The notes below the pieces were generated by a model, which saw only the letters and a list, made by a program, of their open reading frames with translations, did not search any database and was not told where the DNA came from. Below, in pieces: positions 15,520 to 19,890 of a stretch of 23,116 nt of DNA. Numbering within the stretch: the first letter of the stretch is position 1; each line of letters starts with the position of its first letter. A program made the position numbers and the translations under genes. Source of the DNA: a virus. Location of the stretch: the IMG/VR virus record IMGVR_UViG_3300044642_000785, positions 1 to 23,116 of that record; one strand, given 5' to 3'.

Positions 15520-15768
15520 ATGTGGTCTGCACCGATAAAATTACAACCCTTACCAGACGACCCATACCACAACCAACCAAAGCGTTGGATCGGAGCAACA
15601 GCACGCTTTGACCTAAACGGAAAGCGACTCGTTGGTGTTGTAATGAGTCACGTTTTTACAGGAAGAACCGCCAAAGGTAACATTCCTGATTACGAAGTAA
15701 CAATTCGCGGCCAATCAGGCGCAGTTTTAACAGTTTCAATGCACAAAACTTACATGGACATAGAATGA
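15520..15768 (+). CDS. Hypothetical early protein
   Basis: An 82-residue protein, MWSAPIKLQPLPDDPYHNQP, then RWIGATARFDLNGKRLVGVV and SHVFTGRTAKGNIPDYEVTI with a beta-rich pattern. It could be a small SH3- or OB-like fold, but no family is recognised. The earlier in-frame start at 15457 lies in the preceding gene and is rejected. Its stop overlaps the start of the DnaA-like gene (ATGA at 15765-15768). Confidence 0.55.
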   Translation: MWSAPIKLQPLPDDPYHNQPKRWIGATARFDLNGKRLVGVVMSHVFTGRTAKGNIPDYEVTIRGQSGAVLTVSMHKTYMDIE

Positions 15769-16223
15769 AAACTTTAACCGAAAATATAGAAATTTACCGT
15801 CAGCAGTCAGCCGCCCTACTGGTTACAATAAATGCCATTACTCGCATTCTCGACGTTAAAACAACCAACGTCTCACACTCCAAACGCATCAGCATTATCC
15901 AGCGCACCATTTGCGAGCATTTTGATTTACCTGTTGAAGCCATGCACTCACGGGCAAGAACAAACCGCTACGTCACCGCCCGCCACATTGCCATATATCT
16001 TAGCCGAGAACTTACCAAGCACAGTCTAGCGGAAATTGCAAAAGCCTTTCGCCCTGATATGGACCACGGAACAGCCTGCTTTGCCGTTAAATGCATACAG
16101 AACCGTCTCGACGTAGATAAGCCCTTTAACTCCACCATCGCACTCCTCCGCAACACTTGCGCGGAACGTATTACCACCTCAACCGCTGATCTCTTAGACT
16201 ACGCCAAAACCAAAAAAACGTGA
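15765..16223 (+). CDS. Free-standing DnaA domain IV-like protein
   Basis: A 152-residue protein. Residues about 44-118 match the C-terminal DNA-binding domain of DnaA: IQRTICEHFDLPVEAMHSR, then ARHIAIYLSRELTKHSLAEI, AKAFRPDMDHGTACFAVKCI. The core is the helix-turn-helix with 'DHGTA', like the DnaA signature RDHTTV, preceded by 'ARHIAIYL'. The AAA+ and other domains of DnaA are absent. The first 43 residues are helical, the last 35 unclear. Likely roles are binding DnaA-box-like sites to start phage replication, or interfering with host DnaA. The start overlaps the previous stop, and the GTG start of the RuvC-like gene overlaps its stop. Confidence 0.8.
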   Translation: MKTLTENIEIYRQQSAALLVTINAITRILDVKTTNVSHSKRISIIQRTICEHFDLPVEAMHSRARTNRYVTARHIAIYLSRELTKHSLAEIAKAFRPDMDHGTACFAVKCIQNRLDVDKPFNSTIALLRNTCAERITTSTADLLDYAKTKKT

Positions 16224-16717
16224 ACCACAAAAACACCACCGCTAAGGTTTTAGCCTTAGACCTAGCGACCACAACGGGTTGGGCCGACATTGCACACGGC
16301 ATAATCAACTCAGATTCTAAGTCATTTGCCCGTAAGCCTGCCACAAAGACTCGACCAGCTTCAACGCCAGGAGAACCGTTTCACCTGTTTGACGTTTGGC
16401 TTAACGAGCTAATCCGTACCTCCAAGCCTGATACCATCGTTTACGAGGAGGTTTATCGCTGGATGAGTTCAAGCGCGGCGCATACCTTTTGCGGATTTCG
16501 CGCCGTCCTACTTAAAACCTGCCATTATAAAGGCATTACCGTTAAAGGATACAGCCCCACGGAGATAAAAAAATTCTTCACGGGTAAGGGTAACGCCAAG
16601 AAACAACACATGATTGCCGAAGCTAAAAAGCGTTGGCCCAATCTAAAAATAATCGACGACAATCAAATCGACGCCATAGCCCTTCTCCATCTTCATCTAA
16701 AAACTACCACACCATGA
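16220..16717 (+). CDS. RuvC-like Holliday junction resolvase
   Basis: A 165-residue nuclease of the RuvC-like RNase H fold. It shows LALDLATTTGW (D14), IVYEEVYRWM (E76 or E77) and IIDDNQIDAIALL (D146/D147 and D151), the usual acidic metal-binding set with the last two Asp near the C-terminus. It would cut four-way junctions during recombination or packaging, in line with ERF and the exonuclease. Translation starts with GTG at 16220, overlapping the stop of the previous gene (GTGA). The next gene, dUTPase, overlaps its end by four bases. Confidence 0.82.
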   Translation: MNHKNTTAKVLALDLATTTGWADIAHGIINSDSKSFARKPATKTRPASTPGEPFHLFDVWLNELIRTSKPDTIVYEEVYRWMSSSAAHTFCGFRAVLLKTCHYKGITVKGYSPTEIKKFFTGKGNAKKQHMIAEAKKRWPNLKIIDDNQIDAIALLHLHLKTTTP

Positions 16718-17133
16718 ACGTAAAATTACTTCTCACCTCTGCAACCTCAGTAATGCCCAAAACCGCACGCAAAGGTGATGCTGGAATGGACTGCTACGCC
16801 AACGAATTTGTAGTAATTGAACACGGTCACACCAAGAAAGTGCCCCTAGGCTTTGCCGTTGAACTACCCGAAGGCTTTGAAATGCAAGTTCGTGGCCGTT
16901 CTAGCATGAGCTTAAAAGGCATTCTCTGCCACACCGGAACCATTGATTCTGGCTATCGTGGCGAAGTAAGCGCCATTATCACCAACTTAGGCCCAGACAC
17001 TGCTATAATCTCACGGGGCGACCGTATAGCACAGGTTATTGTCACCCACTACGTTGGAACCGTCTTTGTGCCCGTTGCATCCCTTAACGAATCAGAGCGT
17101 GGAACAGCTGGTTTTGGTTCAACCGGAGTTTAA
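16714..17133 (+). CDS. dut: dUTP diphosphatase
   Basis: A 139-residue trimeric-type dUTPase, which splits dUTP to dUMP and pyrophosphate and so keeps uracil out of new DNA. All five motifs are present in order: DAGMD (22-26), RGRSSMSLKG (60-69), GTIDSGYRGE (75-84), RIAQ (104-107) and the C-terminal RGTAGFGSTG (129-138) that closes over the active site. The chosen ATG at 16714 begins MNVKLLLTSA, preceded by ACTACCACACC and overlapping the resolvase gene. It is the last clearly phage-replication gene before the HTH protein and the cassette array. Confidence 0.95.
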   Translation: MNVKLLLTSATSVMPKTARKGDAGMDCYANEFVVIEHGHTKKVPLGFAVELPEGFEMQVRGRSSMSLKGILCHTGTIDSGYRGEVSAIITNLGPDTAIISRGDRIAQVIVTHYVGTVFVPVASLNESERGTAGFGSTGV

Positions 17134-17136
17134 CTT

Positions 17137-17376
17137 ATGAAACTTGCTCGACGATCCAAATCCAGCCGGCACCGAAAATGCGGCCCTAAAACACTGGCAG
17201 CCTTTGCAAACAAGAAAGACCCGGCCTTGGCTTTTTTACGTGATGGTTTTTCCGCCGGCTGGGTCGCCCGAAAACTGGAGTTAACCGAACAACTGGTCAC
17301 GCACTGGCGCGACGAGGCCGGAATCTCGCCATGCAAGCCGGGAAAATGTAGGCCGATGCCTGCGGCGACTGGTTAG
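17137..17376 (+). CDS. Small helix-turn-helix protein ending at a half attC
   Basis: A 79-residue basic protein: MKLARRSKSSRHRKCGPKTL, then LRDGFSAGWVARKLELTEQL with VTHWRDEAGISP, a helix-turn-helix like the winged or sigma-region type (LxxGFSAGxVARxLELTxxxVxxWR). The Arg/Lys-rich N-terminus suggests DNA binding. Its stop TAG (17374-17376) lies within GTTAGAC, the right core of an attC-like end. The last residues CRPMPAATG may therefore have been added by recombination, and the gene may be shortened or extended relative to relatives. It starts three bases after the dUTPase stop. Confidence 0.6.
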   Translation: MKLARRSKSSRHRKCGPKTLAAFANKKDPALAFLRDGFSAGWVARKLELTEQLVTHWRDEAGISPCKPGKCRPMPAATG

Positions 17377-17378
17377 AC
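17364..17378 (+). repeat. Right half of an attC-like site, 5' edge of the cassette array
   Basis: GGCGACTGGTTAGAC closely matches the right ends of the complete attC sites downstream (TAGCGACTGGTTAGGC). Recombination would cut after G at 17372. I find no good left arm upstream for the expected pairing, neither GTYTAAC near it nor a matching stem; GTTTAAC at 17128 is too far away. This half therefore marks the phage-cassette border. Confidence 0.65.
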
Positions 17379-17401
17379 ATCCGTGTCTTGAGTTTCCGAA
17401 C

Positions 17402-17809
17402 ATGATAATCAAAAAACTAAAATCAATAATTTGCCGATGGGCGCACGACGACGAAAACAAGCGACTGCGTGAAAAGCTGCGCATGTATAAAGGCTATCTT
17501 CGGGCCGCGAATAAAGGGGCCGAGTGCAATGCGCGGGTGAGCGAACTATCCGCTGCCAGAAACAATGAACTGCATAGGCGCATATACGAGATGCAGACCA
17601 AAATTGATAACCAAGCGGCCCGCATTCGATTCTTTGAGGGGGCGACTAATCACGCCGGAGGGGTTTTACTTAGTCGTCAATTTAGAGGTATGATATGTTG
17701 CGAAATATGCGGCAATAAGCGGTGCCCCCACGCGACCGATAAGAACCATAAATGCACGCAATCAAATGCGGTTGGGCAAGTCGGTGTTCCGATTTCCGAA
17801 ACTGCCTAA
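17402..17809 (+). CDS. Cassette gene 1: coiled-coil protein with CGNKRCPHA motif
   Basis: A 135-residue protein. Residues 1-80 are a Lys/Arg/Glu-rich helix, probably a coiled coil (KRLREKLRMYKGYLRAANKG and further). The C-terminal part has MICCEICGNKRCPHATDKNH followed by KCTQSN, the 'CxxCGNKRCPHAxD...CTxSN' segment that I recognise from small phage proteins; it is probably a zinc site. The start MIIKKLKSII at 17402 is 24 bases after the cassette border. The stop TAA falls inside GCCTAAC, the left core of the following attC, so the gene fills the cassette. Function is unknown; relatives lie in many phages. Confidence 0.75.
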   Translation: MIIKKLKSIICRWAHDDENKRLREKLRMYKGYLRAANKGAECNARVSELSAARNNELHRRIYEMQTKIDNQAARIRFFEGATNHAGGVLLSRQFRGMICCEICGNKRCPHATDKNHKCTQSNAVGQVGVPISETA

Positions 17810-17896
17810 CGTAAAGCCTAGCGATGACCACCTCTAAGCGGTACACGATCAATTTGCGTGACAAGCGTGGTCATTCGCTGCGGCGCTTGGTTAGGC
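17804..17896 (+). repeat. attC site A
   Basis: Left core GCCTAAC (17804-17810) and right core GTTAGGC (17890-17896) are perfect complements. The inner arms are GCGATGACCAC (17821-17831) and GTGGTCATTCGC (17867-17878), which pair over 11 bases with one unpaired base in the second arm. Length is 93 bases, with a 35-base central part. Folding the bottom strand would give the attC hairpin with an extrahelical base. It holds the stop codon of cassette gene 1 and an ATG at 17824. Confidence 0.9.
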
Positions 17897-18096
17897 TATA
17901 TCGTCGAAGAGCACACGCCCGCGAGTGGGAATATGGCATGTGCGACAAATGCCGTGCGCGCCGAAACCAGAAAACCGGAGCAGTTCAATTCGTGCTTTGG
18001 CCAGCGGGCGAGCAAGGGCACCGCTTCGATTTCTGGCACAACTTCGACCGCACATGGTGGTCTTTATTTCTGCCTAACGCCCAAGCTCAGCGATAG
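17824..18096 (+). CDS. Cassette gene 2: ORF starting inside attC A, ending inside attC B
   Basis: The open frame begins at ATG-ACC-ACC within the arm of attC A and ends at TAG within the arm of attC B (90 residues). The part inside the cassette reads HAREWEYGMCDKCRARRNQK, then QFVLWPAGEQGHRFDFWHNF and DRTWWSLF. The tail LPNAQAQR is encoded by attC B. CDKC may bind zinc. A later in-frame ATG at 17938 would give 52 residues, but would drop the arginine-rich lead that looks part of the same domain. I therefore keep the attC start, with the shorter version as the alternative. No family is certain. Confidence 0.5.
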   Translation: MTTSKRYTINLRDKRGHSLRRLVRLYRRRAHAREWEYGMCDKCRARRNQKTGAVQFVLWPAGEQGHRFDFWHNFDRTWWSLFLPNAQAQR

Positions 18097-18160
18097 CCCA
18101 CTGAAACTAGACGAACAATTTGCGGCGTTAAGGGCTATTCGCTGTAGCGCCTGGTTGGGC
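18072..18160 (+). repeat. attC site B
   Basis: Left core GCCTAAC (18072-18078) and right core GTTGGGC (18154-18160). Inner arms GCTCAGCGATAGCCC (18085-18099) and GGGCTATTCGCTGTAGC (18132-18148) pair over 15 bases with two extra unpaired bases in the right arm. Length is 89 bases. The core pair has one G-T type mismatch. It holds the stop codon of cassette gene 2. Confidence 0.9.
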
Positions 18161-18262
18161 GGTATGGTTTTTCCGCAGATCGGGTAACGTAAACAAATAC
18201 TAAAACGTAACGAATTATAAACATGACGCGGCAACGTGTCTAAAAACTAAAGAAAAACGAAC

Positions 18263-18520
18263 ATGACTGAAACACCGAGAACCAATAGAGCCGAGTTTTG
18301 TATCCTCGATTGCCGAGGGGAAACGCACGACGTGGTGGGCCGCGCATTCGCCCGCGAGCTAGAGCGCGAGAACGCACGGCTACGAGAGTGTAATAGGGCC
18401 TGTGCTGAATGGGTGAAACAATCCGCTGACCAATGGATGCACCGCCCTAGAGGTGGATGGCCAATAGAACTACGCAAAGCGTATGAAGCAGTTCATGATG
18501 CTGCATTGCCCAACGTCTAG
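18263..18520 (+). CDS. Cassette gene 3: 'TPRTN' small phage-type protein
   Basis: An 85-residue protein starting MTETPRTNRAEFCILDCRGE, then VVGRAFARELERENARLREC and PRGGWPIELRKAYEAVHDAA. Small phage proteins often begin 'xTPRTDAA' and continue with 'FARELERENAxLR', a helical region; I cannot give them a function. The start has its own ATG after AAAAACGAAC, about 100 bases inside the cassette, so unlike genes 2 and 5 it does not need the attC start. The frame continues to the stop TAG at 18518-18520, a few bases past the left core of attC C (GCCCAAC). Confidence 0.7.
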   Translation: MTETPRTNRAEFCILDCRGETHDVVGRAFARELERENARLRECNRACAEWVKQSADQWMHRPRGGWPIELRKAYEAVHDAALPNV

Positions 18521-18599
18521 CTGAGCCAGATGCGCAACACCTTCGACAGTAAACAATCAGCGGGCCAATGCGCATCTTGGCTCTAGCGACTGGTTAGGC
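18508..18599 (+). repeat. attC site C
   Basis: Left core GCCCAAC (18508-18514) and right core GTTAGGC (18593-18599). Inner arms GAGCCAGATGCGCA (18523-18536) and TGCGCATCTTGGCTC (18569-18583) pair over 14 bases with one extra base in the right arm. Length is 92 bases. The stem differs in sequence from the other sites while keeping the same geometry, as true attC sites do. It contains the stop of cassette gene 3. Confidence 0.88.
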
Positions 18600-18614
18600 T
18601 TCATTTTTTATTTT

Positions 18615-18791
18615 ATGAAATGGTCAAAAACTCCTGATGGGCGACTAATATGCAAACAATACGATGCCGTGATTTTAGGGCCGCTTGAAGACGGCGGATT
18701 CCGCGTATGGTGCGGCAGTAAATTTGTGATATGTGATTCAATAAAAGACGCTAAAGATTGGGTAAAATCAGCAATACAATTCAAACGATGA
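18615..18791 (+). CDS. Cassette gene 4a: small hypothetical protein
   Basis: A 58-residue protein, MKWSKTPDGRLICKQYDAVI then LGPLEDGGFRVWCGSKFVIC and a helix ending QFKR. It has a mixed alpha/beta look; three Cys are present. It begins 16 bases after attC C, behind TTTTTTATTTT, with no Shine-Dalgarno. The stop overlaps the start of gene 4b (ATGA at 18788-18791), so cassette 4 carries two coupled genes. Function is unknown. Confidence 0.6.
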   Translation: MKWSKTPDGRLICKQYDAVILGPLEDGGFRVWCGSKFVICDSIKDAKDWVKSAIQFKR

Positions 18792-19003
18792 GAACTCCAG
18801 ACTTGCACCATGCCGACCAAATTGGGTTCGGCCCTGAAACAACAATTGGGAAGCATCCACACAATGCGCGTGTGCTTGTTCGTCCATTCAGTGCCAGTGG
18901 CCTTAATCTAAGGCAGCGGTTTCGTATGGCATGGGCAGTATTCACTGGCAAGTATGATGCTCTGTCTTGGTTCCCTCTGCCTAACGCTCAAGCTCAGCGA
19001 TGA
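18788..19003 (+). CDS. Cassette gene 4b: small protein with attC-coded tail LPNAQAQR
   Basis: A 71-residue protein: MRTPDLHHADQIGFGPETTI, then NARVLVRPFSASGLNLRQRF and RMAWAVFTGKYDALSWF, followed by LPNAQAQR. The part 'RFRMAWAVFTGKYDAL' resembles a helix in small phage proteins of unknown role. The last eight residues are read from the left core and arm of attC D and are identical to those of cassette gene 2, which is otherwise unrelated. The stop TGA (19001-19003) overlaps the ATG of the next ORF at 19000. Confidence 0.6.
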   Translation: MRTPDLHHADQIGFGPETTIGKHPHNARVLVRPFSASGLNLRQRFRMAWAVFTGKYDALSWFPLPNAQAQR

Positions 19004-19074
19004 CCACAACACTGAAAACTCCCGAAGCATCAGCGGCAACAGCGTGGTCATTCGCCTGTAGCGACTGGTTAGGC
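18979..19074 (+). repeat. attC site D
   Basis: Left core GCCTAAC (18979-18985) and right core GTTAGGC (19068-19074). Inner arms GCTCAGCGATGACCAC (18992-19007) and GTGGTCATTCGCCTGTAGC (19044-19062) pair over 16 bases with three extra bases in the right arm. Length is 96 bases. The arm contains the overlapping stop and start TGA/ATG (19000-19003) that joins cassette gene 4b to the methyltransferase-like ORF. Confidence 0.9.
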
Positions 19075-19713
19075 TCTGATGCTCGTTTCCTAGTATGCTG
19101 TGAGCATTCTGGAATCGTGCGCGAAGCCTTCCGCAAGCGCGGTCTGGATGCCTGGAGCTGTGACCTACTGCCCGCCGATGACAACTCGCCCTATCACATC
19201 CAAGGAGACTGCCGAGAAGCCATGAAAGCGGGGCATTGGGACGGCTTCGGGCTGCATCCCGACTGCACATATCTAACCGTCGCTGGAATCCACTGGAATA
19301 ACCGAGGCCGTGGGCATGATAAAACAAACGCGGCTTTGGCCTTCGTCCGCGAGGTAATCGAGATTGCCGGAGATCGTCCGTGGTATCTCGAAAACCCTGT
19401 CTCTATAATCTCAACCAGAATCAAGAAACCAACCCAAACCATACAACCTTACGAGTTTGGTGAAGACGCCAGCAAGCGCACCTGCCTATGGCTGAATAAA
19501 CTGCCAAGGCTCACCGGAACGAAACGCTTCAACGGTCGAATGGTAGAGTGGCCAATCGGCTCTGGGAAGATGGTCGAACGCTGGTCGAACCAAACCGACA
19601 GCGGCCAAAACAAACTCGCGCCTTCTGCCAACCGCTGGAAGCTGCGCTCGAAAACATACCAAGGAATCGCCGCCGCGATGGCTGACCAATGGGTCGGGGT
19701 TCCTTCTGTCTAA
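19000..19713 (+). CDS. Cassette gene 5: DNA (cytosine-5) methyltransferase-like protein
   Basis: A 237-residue frame. Residues 1-25 are attC-coded; then RFLVCCEHSGIVREAFRKRG, LDAWSCDLLPADD, YHIQGDCREAM and FGLHPDCTYLTVAGIHWNN follow. Later come WYLENPVSIISTRI and SANRWKLRSKTYQGIAAAMA. This is the phage protein class often called DNA methyltransferase: it has an AdoMet-site-like start and a 'HPDCTYL' motif in place of the usual PPC. No in-frame ATG, GTG or TTG lies between the attC border and the first conserved residues, so the ATG at 19000 in attC D is the only evident start. Whether it modifies DNA is uncertain. The stop is in GTCTAAC, the left core of a broken attC. Confidence 0.7.
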   Translation: MTTTLKTPEASAATAWSFACSDWLGSDARFLVCCEHSGIVREAFRKRGLDAWSCDLLPADDNSPYHIQGDCREAMKAGHWDGFGLHPDCTYLTVAGIHWNNRGRGHDKTNAALAFVREVIEIAGDRPWYLENPVSIISTRIKKPTQTIQPYEFGEDASKRTCLWLNKLPRLTGTKRFNGRMVEWPIGSGKMVERWSNQTDSGQNKLAPSANRWKLRSKTYQGIAAAMADQWVGVPSV

Positions 19714-19774
19714 CGTTGTGTAGCCGGAAAACTTTCCAGATAGGCCGACCACACCAGCGCCTATCTAGAAATTT
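19708..19774 (+). repeat. Left half attC remnant and long hairpin, 3' edge of the array
   Basis: GTCTAAC (19708-19714) is a left core at the end of the methyltransferase-like gene, followed by GTTGTGTAGCCGG. The matching right arm and a GTTAGAC core are not found downstream. Instead AAAACTTTCCAGATAGGC (about 19728-19745) can pair with the segment from 19759 to 19776 (GCCTATCT and beyond) with two mismatches, forming a long hairpin followed by TTTTT. The site looks truncated, or its second half has been replaced. It may also serve as terminator of the array. Confidence 0.5.
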
Positions 19775-19856
19775 TTACAGTTTTTACAGCTAGGTTTAGG
19801 CAGGCTTAACGCCTGCAAATCCTTACTAGGTTAAAACCCCATAAGCACTGTAAAAA
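19772..19856. repeat. TTTTTACAG repeats at the module junction
   Basis: TTTTTACAG occurs twice in tandem (19772-19780 and 19781-19789) and once inverted as CTGTAAAAA (19848-19856), around a GCAGGC-TTAAC-GCCTGC hairpin (19800-19816). The arrangement is symmetric and lies between the converging array and the late genes. It may reflect a binding site or a scar of recombination. Confidence 0.4.
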
Positions 19857-19859
19857 ACC

Positions 19860-19890
19860 AAAGCCCCACCGTAACAAGTGGGGCTTTTTT
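19860..19890. terminator. Bidirectional terminator between converging genes
   Basis: AAAGCCCCAC (19860-19869) pairs perfectly with GTGGGGCTTT (19878-19887) around CGTAACAA. The plus strand continues with a T-run (TTTTTT in all), and the minus strand with GGTTTTTT a few bases later. It should stop the cassette-side transcripts and the late minus-strand transcript, which converge here. Confidence 0.85.

Follow-up and report, generated by a model that had tools for sequence, protein, structure and literature searches.

The window analyzed here, meaning the whole stretch of DNA under study, is a linear 23,116-base IMG/VR virus record (IMGVR_UViG_3300044642_000785). It contains an array of small genes separated by attC sites, the recombination sites of integron cassettes, bounded on the right by an attI-like element and on the left by a half-site (Table 1). 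The left part of the window is made up of minus-strand terminase- and connector-like genes, and the middle of plus-strand replication and recombination genes (ERF, an exonuclease-like protein, a DnaA C-terminal domain, a RuvC-like protein and dUTPase). The genes on the right lie on the minus strand, mostly with no assigned function. The array sits between the plus-strand operon and these right-hand genes; a preliminary description of the same DNA had correctly recognized the replication module on one side of its gene units and the late module on the other. With four attC sites within 1.3 kb and no match to an integron integrase (IntI) gene, the locus belongs to the clusters of attC sites lacking an integron integrase (CALINs), defined by at least two close attCs and no intI.

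Table 1. Features of the cassette array and of its left flank; positions refer to the window
Feature	Positions	Strand	Remarks
RuvC-like resolvase gene, left flank of array	16220..16717	+	Pfam PF02075, E=6.4e-8; 87% amino acid identity in relative G001
dUTPase gene, left flank of array	16717..17133	+	Pfam PF00692, E=1.1e-27
Small DNA-binding-like open reading frame (ORF), 3' end fused to attC half-site	17137..17376	+	stop codon in R box
Truncated attC of distal cassette, R''-L'' side only	17358..17376	-	comparison with G346 and G337; model R2 E=0.015
Cassette 5 (distal, probably anchored)	17370..17809	-	ORF 17402-17809 (+), no assigned function
attC1	17804..17896	-	93 bp; R2 53.7 bits, E=7.5e-12; model R1 86.8 bits
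Cassette 4, attC1 and short gene	17810..18077	-	coding strand ambiguous
attC2	18072..18160	-	89 bp; R2 60.2 bits, E=1.7e-13
Cassette 3, attC2 and one ORF	18078..18513	-	ORF 18263-18520 (+), no assigned function
attC3	18508..18599	-	92 bp; R2 53.8 bits, E=7e-12
Cassette 2, attC3 and two ORFs	18514..18984	-	ORFs 18615-18791 (+) and 18797-19003 (+)
attC4	18979..19074	-	96 bp; R2 55.3 bits, E=2.9e-12
Cassette 1 (attI-proximal), attC4 and DNA methyltransferase-like gene	18985..19713	-	gene on +, to 19713
attI-like element	19714..19886	-	about 190 bp conserved in 14 arrays; holds end-of-array terminator
Terminator-like hairpin AAAGCCCCAC..GTGGGGCTTTTTT inside attI-like element	19860..19890	+	from sequence; seen in several other arrays

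Structure of the attC sites

Four complete attC sites, 89-96 bp long when measured from the start of R'' to the end of R', occur about where the preliminary description had located them. They were searched for with R2, a covariance model derived from 19 attCs on contigs with a match to the integron-integrase model TIGR02249, 16 of them from the bacterial metagenome-assembled genomes (MAGs) G011 and G015 and 3 from G336, an integrase-bearing contig classed as viral. In the 23-kb window R2 finds exactly these four sites, all on the minus strand (E = 1.7e-13 to 7.5e-12), the next match being the left half-site (E=0.015). R2 also recognizes attCs in ten further pieces of phage arrays, at least 60 in all, and a second model, R1, built from phage attC sites alone, matches attCs adjoining IntI in Chthoniobacteraceae and proteobacterial MAGs, its best bacterial matches (67 bits) falling in a Chthoniobacteraceae MAG. 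The known phage TJE1, run for comparison, is matched by neither R1 nor R2; both models are therefore narrow, and uninformative about other attC types.

Folded as single-stranded DNA, the four window sites are more stable than their shuffled counterparts (z = -2.4 to -3.3), and a motif-plus-stem scan recovers 4 sites in the window versus 1 in 312 kb of shuffled sequence. In an alignment of 39 sites, taken from the window and seven other phage contigs, 97.1% of the stem cells are paired, compared with 83.8% in shuffles; pairing falls to 20-43% when one partner is slid by 1-3 columns, and 9 of the 21 stem pairs show compensatory change. This covariation bears out the earlier proposal that geometry is maintained while the arms differ in sequence. 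The inner-stem (L''/L') cells are paired in 98.5% of cases, the R boxes, AAC (R'') and GTT (R'), are invariant in all 39 sites, a spacer separates R box and stem, and one arm features two fixed unpaired positions. The four window sites are attCs in structure and in strand; their recombination by IntI is predicted.

Strand and gene direction

Had the attC scan been oriented on the plus strand, as originally advised, it would have followed the wrong strand: both R2 and the arrays adjoining IntI place the canonical attC on the minus strand. In five integrase-bearing contigs with attCs near IntI, attI and IntI lie to the right of the attCs in the frame used, with the single exception of a weak attC match at the far end of L183, which falls beyond IntI. 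The attI-like end of the phage arrays and the bacterial attI/IntI are thus found on the same side of the attCs. In G015 the integrase is directed away from the array, which is the usual arrangement. The reverse is seen in the verrucomicrobial integrons of G011 (contigs C60, C135 and C196), where the IntI gene is directed towards the cassettes.

Canonical attCs are expected to carry their unpaired bases on the 5' arm, and this is where the alignment puts the fixed unpaired bases when the minus strand is read. The strand selectivity of attC sites has been described (PMC8946536). The direction of genes gives a further indication: all 6 scored cassettes of the bacterial array G017 carry minus-strand genes, the usual orientation, while 56 of the 62 decidable phage cassettes carry plus-strand genes. 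The phage genes therefore have the reverse orientation with respect to their attCs, and are directed towards the docking end. A plus-strand orientation of the attCs was ruled out by the arrays adjoining IntI together with the gene direction in G017.

The attI-like element at the right edge

The range initially assigned to the array, 17373-19714, encloses the attCs; however, it ends with the first base of the attI-like element, leaving out the docking element (19714-19886), and it cuts the half-site at 17358-17376. Nor does the array consist of attCs alone, as had been assumed, its right edge being an attI-like element conserved across unrelated phages. Read on the minus strand, the element has its predicted crossover at G|TT, with 19713 and 19714 on either side. 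An nhmmer profile, which includes the window itself, matches 19886-19708 with E=2e-42. On the minus strand the core is GCCTA-N7-TTRGGC, arranged like an attI core, and bacterial integrons feature, at the corresponding place, a candidate attI core, GCCTAATACATG|TTAGGC, similar to the phage one. These features point to an attI-like site, for which docking activity is predicted. A truncated attC, or a lone R'' box, was considered for the right edge and ruled out, since about 190 bp are conserved in unrelated phages.

The element was found in at least five phage groups: the window with G001; G004, G006, G008, G010, G337 and G347; G007, G009 and G335; G005; G352. Outside the array, related ORFs number at most 9 between groups, and 0 to 6 for the group of the window. 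The preliminary description regarded such arrays as rare in phages, a view that no longer holds: 15 other IMG/VR contigs contain the window attC type and the same array end, and attC clusters in lytic phages were already published in 2023 (PMC9892861). When the attI-like end was compared with the phage collection, only weak matches of 36-46 bp near the terminator were obtained, and the window attC, tested against named phages, gave no match. One pattern scan for empty attI-like sites in relatives found none, and yielded two new arrays, L186 and L187.

The left edge and the cassettes

At the left edge a small gene passes directly into an attC arm at CTGCGGCG, both in the window and in G001. A copy of this gene in G346 (97.7% nucleotide identity over 17264-17350, 87 nt) has a longer C-terminus, followed by an intact attC, so that the distal cassette of the window has evidently lost part of its attC. 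As CTGCGGCG is present both in the small gene and in attC arms, the half-site is, judging from this comparison, a deletion scar with CTGCGGCG microhomology, and the distal cassette was probably anchored by the partial loss of its attC.

The cassette 1 gene is DNA methyltransferase-like by its match to phrog_757 (E=8.6e-55), and its gene part is 93.4% identical to G010_c4 over 639 nt; the frame is open from an ATG at 19000, inside attC4, and the family match starts near 19084. The second ORF of cassette 2 (18797-19003) matches phrog_21988 (E=1.8e-6), and the last 161 nt of the cassette 3 gene part are 96.9% identical to G347_c4. Cassette 4 agrees perfectly with a cassette of G010, both in 181 nt of its gene part and in its attC stem (100% each). 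The first 190 nt of the cassette 5 ORF recur in G001, at a different array position.

Further to the left, 15765-16223 encodes a phage protein in which the C-terminal DNA-binding domain of bacterial DnaA is recognized (E 8.5e-19); its gene lies 3' of a helicase-loader-like one. A Rfam search of the window gave no match.

Turnover and sharing of cassettes

The array keeps its locus but changes its content. The window and G001 are 92% identical in the left flank and 84% in the right one; the G001 array is longer and different, with a relative of the window distal gene three places further in. G007 and G009, from two metagenomes, show 99.92% identity across 12.5 kb next to the array, and share the distal cassette gene, while all cassettes nearer the docking site differ, with breakpoints at R boxes. 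Sharing also extends to otherwise unrelated phages: the window and G010 have in common one stretch of 181 nt (100%) and another of 639 nt (93%), and G001 and G007 a cassette gene of 245 nt at 100%. L186 and L187, again from two metagenomes, carry the same array segment; it includes a cassette for a Phd/YefM-ParE toxin-antitoxin pair (L187:3500-4210), in the usual orientation and with an attC of bacterial type, in a phage array that has the same attI-like end. The earlier suggestion that cassettes can move is supported. A cassette for an RNA ligase (PF09414; L014:6774-7444 in G010) is also found in G004 (82%) and G006 (81%), whose copies are 98.9% alike to each other.

An integrated cassette that was once circular is expected to start with bases complementary to its own R''. 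Among 73 cassettes, 55 have a start that matches their own end fully, against 32 expected (p 2e-4, within-array shuffles), while of 60 neighbour-owned boxes within the same attC only 27 match; in a bacterial control array the pairing is found in 6 of 6 cassettes. We read this pattern as a sign of a circular stage. In the window it is followed by the three cassettes lying between complete attCs.

Some arrays depart from this regular layout. G006 contains a half attC (L010:892-960) and G001 a hybrid one, with arms from different stem families (L008:1803-1892); both are best described as scars of recombination between attCs. Leaders of 25-50 bp recur before unrelated ORFs, just after the attC, in G001, G004, G006, G008, G010 and G347, and may serve as translation leaders or as recombination anchors. 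A cassette unit made of a gene and the attC that follows it was rejected, since shared genes do not retain their downstream attC; the reversed unit performs better, although not always.

Integrase and host

The TIGR02249 search, which was positive in control genomes, ordinary tyrosine recombinases included, gave no match in the window, in agreement with the preliminary description, nor in any of ten phage contigs besides it, related or array-bearing; a 41-kb close relative likewise has none. The contigs searched are possibly incomplete. Four further contigs classed as viral match the model, three of them convincingly; their phage identity is putative and most of their attCs are of other types. 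G338, G336 and G341 (L139, L137 and L149), IMG/VR contigs of 31-52 kb, combine an integron integrase match with attC-like matches, and are either phages that carry complete integrons or bacterial DNA wrongly classed as viral.

Of 272 genomes in the class of the Chthoniobacteraceae MAG, 27 contain relatives of the terminase (identity up to 41%), a count that covered this class alone; the window cassettes, sought in 286 genomes of that class, returned one attC fragment and nothing else. A verrucomicrobial or similar aquatic host may be taken as a lead.

Proposed mechanism and alternatives

No recombinase of this kind is encoded in the window, and the same set-up and some identical genes are found in unrelated phages, so that phages appear to exchange genes by means of the machinery of their hosts. 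We consider it reasonably probable that the locus is an integron platform without integrase, in which a phage attI-like site and its cassettes are served by host IntI in trans. The data themselves establish attC structure and strand, the conserved docking element, the turnover, the sharing between unrelated phages, and the lack of IntI in the contigs. Each cassette would consist of an attC and a small phage gene, arrayed from the phage-borne attI-like site. During infection, host IntI acting in trans would insert circular cassettes at G|TT of that site, and cassettes would be excised at attCs that fold where phage replication leaves the DNA single-stranded; the cassettes would come from co-infecting phages and from the integron of the host itself. 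We infer that the inverted genes are read from the upstream phage replication operon, towards the attI-like site and the terminator, and cargo such as the methyltransferase and the RNA ligase may benefit the phage. Homologous recombination between attCs and conserved gene leaders may form a second layer of shuffling, for which the phage Erf-type annealing protein and RuvC-like resolvase are candidates. The broader proposition, that several otherwise unrelated phage groups share a phage-specific platform, with its own attI, no integrase and genes flipped so that the phage operon reads them, and use host integrases to trade cassettes and to capture bacterial ones, is held with less assurance, as lying just on the probable side.

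Several observations weigh against an integrase-driven platform. In sampled bacterial genomes the attI-like element finds only short fragments, mostly terminator-like. Upstream of the array G007 and G009 are 96.5-98% identical, a greater divergence than downstream, and homologous exchange could explain that case. Cassettes 1 and 5 of the window, the two end ones, break the pairing rule. Many shared genes lie beside attCs that are mostly 47-77% alike, random pairs having a median of 65%, and gene and attC are often decoupled, contrary to what simple cassette movement predicts. Of five full-length shared genes, three have a similar attC (84-100%) and two do not (66-73%). Finally, some attCs are hybrid or half. 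Given the decoupled attCs, the hybrids and the common leaders, homologous recombination must add to, or even replace, the action of an integrase.

The chief alternative takes the latter course, and sees in the array a fragment of a bacterial integron, captured at some time through illegitimate or homologous recombination, passively carried and changed only by phage homologous recombination between attC and leader repeats, with no integrase involved today. It accommodates the dissimilar attCs beside shared genes, the hybrid and half sites of G001 and G006, the leaders common to unrelated ORFs, and the ERF and RuvC-like proteins encoded by the phage, but it leaves unexplained why inner-stem pairing is maintained with compensatory change, why the pairing of cassette start and own end persists across arrays, why unrelated phages have, where the array ends, a conserved element whose core is of attI type, and why a bacterial-type cassette in the usual orientation is present. 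We rate it as rather unlikely, though as the most serious competitor of the platform with host IntI in trans.

Much less probable is that the hairpins serve at the RNA level, in processing, termination or translation coupling of a polycistronic message, their likeness to attC being inherited and unused for recombination. Their location between co-directional phage genes and their compensatory changes would fit such a role; the invariance of AAC/GTT in 39 of 39 sites, the unpaired bases fixed on one arm, as IntI binding expects, and the cassette boundaries at the expected IntI crossover point do not. An artefact of metagenome assembly, joining unrelated contigs at repeats, is very improbable: all records are indeed metagenome contigs with repeated elements, but the architecture is the same in many separate metagenomes, L186 and L187 share a segment across two of them, and attCs compared between arrays are about 65% identical in the median, which leaves few long exact repeats. 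Ordinary phage intergenic repeats, conserved as such in all relatives, which the preliminary description had named as the outcome that would speak against attCs, can be dismissed: the independent model R2 recognizes the sites with E = 1e-11 to 1e-13, the locus is conserved with almost completely different content, and no point in favor was found.

Work on integrons has treated them as devices by which bacteria capture genes, and reports of phage arrays have so far been scattered single cases. If the proposed platform, with a conserved docking site and rapid turnover of cassettes in several phage groups, is real, phages would depend on a host recombinase for gene swapping, part of phage mosaicism would be explained at one predictable locus, and a direct cassette route, for toxin-antitoxin systems and methyltransferases, would connect phages and bacterial integrons.

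Comparison with known systems

The chromosomal integrons of Chthoniobacteraceae and other aquatic bacteria (MAGs G011, G017 and G015) resemble the phage arrays in attC stems, R boxes, attI core geometry and side of the array. They differ in carrying IntI (G011, G015) and genes in the usual orientation (G017, 6/6), while the phage platform has no integrase; moreover, the phage attI-like sequence differs from bacterial attI outside the core.

Cassettes are also accepted outside integrons, at double-stranded GTT sites known as attG. These share the GTT with the phage site, but are scattered and of low specificity, whereas the phage site is one conserved element of about 190 bp at a fixed place. 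The abstract of PMC12901181 mentions them as secondary insertion sites.

Parts of a host integron have been found in phage genomes before, as fragments in Vibrio anguillarum temperate phages (PMC9892861); both fragments, however, belong to the host's own integron and include IntI, whereas window-type arrays form a separate, phage-shared pool without IntI.

The closest likeness is with the CALINs of the virulent phages TJE1, P12002L and PH101 (Qi et al. 2023, PMC9892861), which are attC arrays with small genes, including DNA methyltransferases, and no integrase; 5 of the 6 phage sites tested recombine with IntI1 in E. coli. Phage attC clusters, and IntI1-active attCs in lytic phages, are already known. 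Unlike the arrays analyzed here, these CALINs are described, in the accessible text of that article, in single phages, without shared cassettes, a conserved attI-like end or turnover at the locus; TJE1 is matched by neither of our models, and in the window's group the genes have the reverse orientation with respect to attC. In the searchable literature, which comprised no preprints and few subscription journals, nothing was found on an attI-like platform common to several phages or on cassettes shared by different phage groups. The shared attI-like platform, the trading of cassettes and the inverted genes appear to be new.

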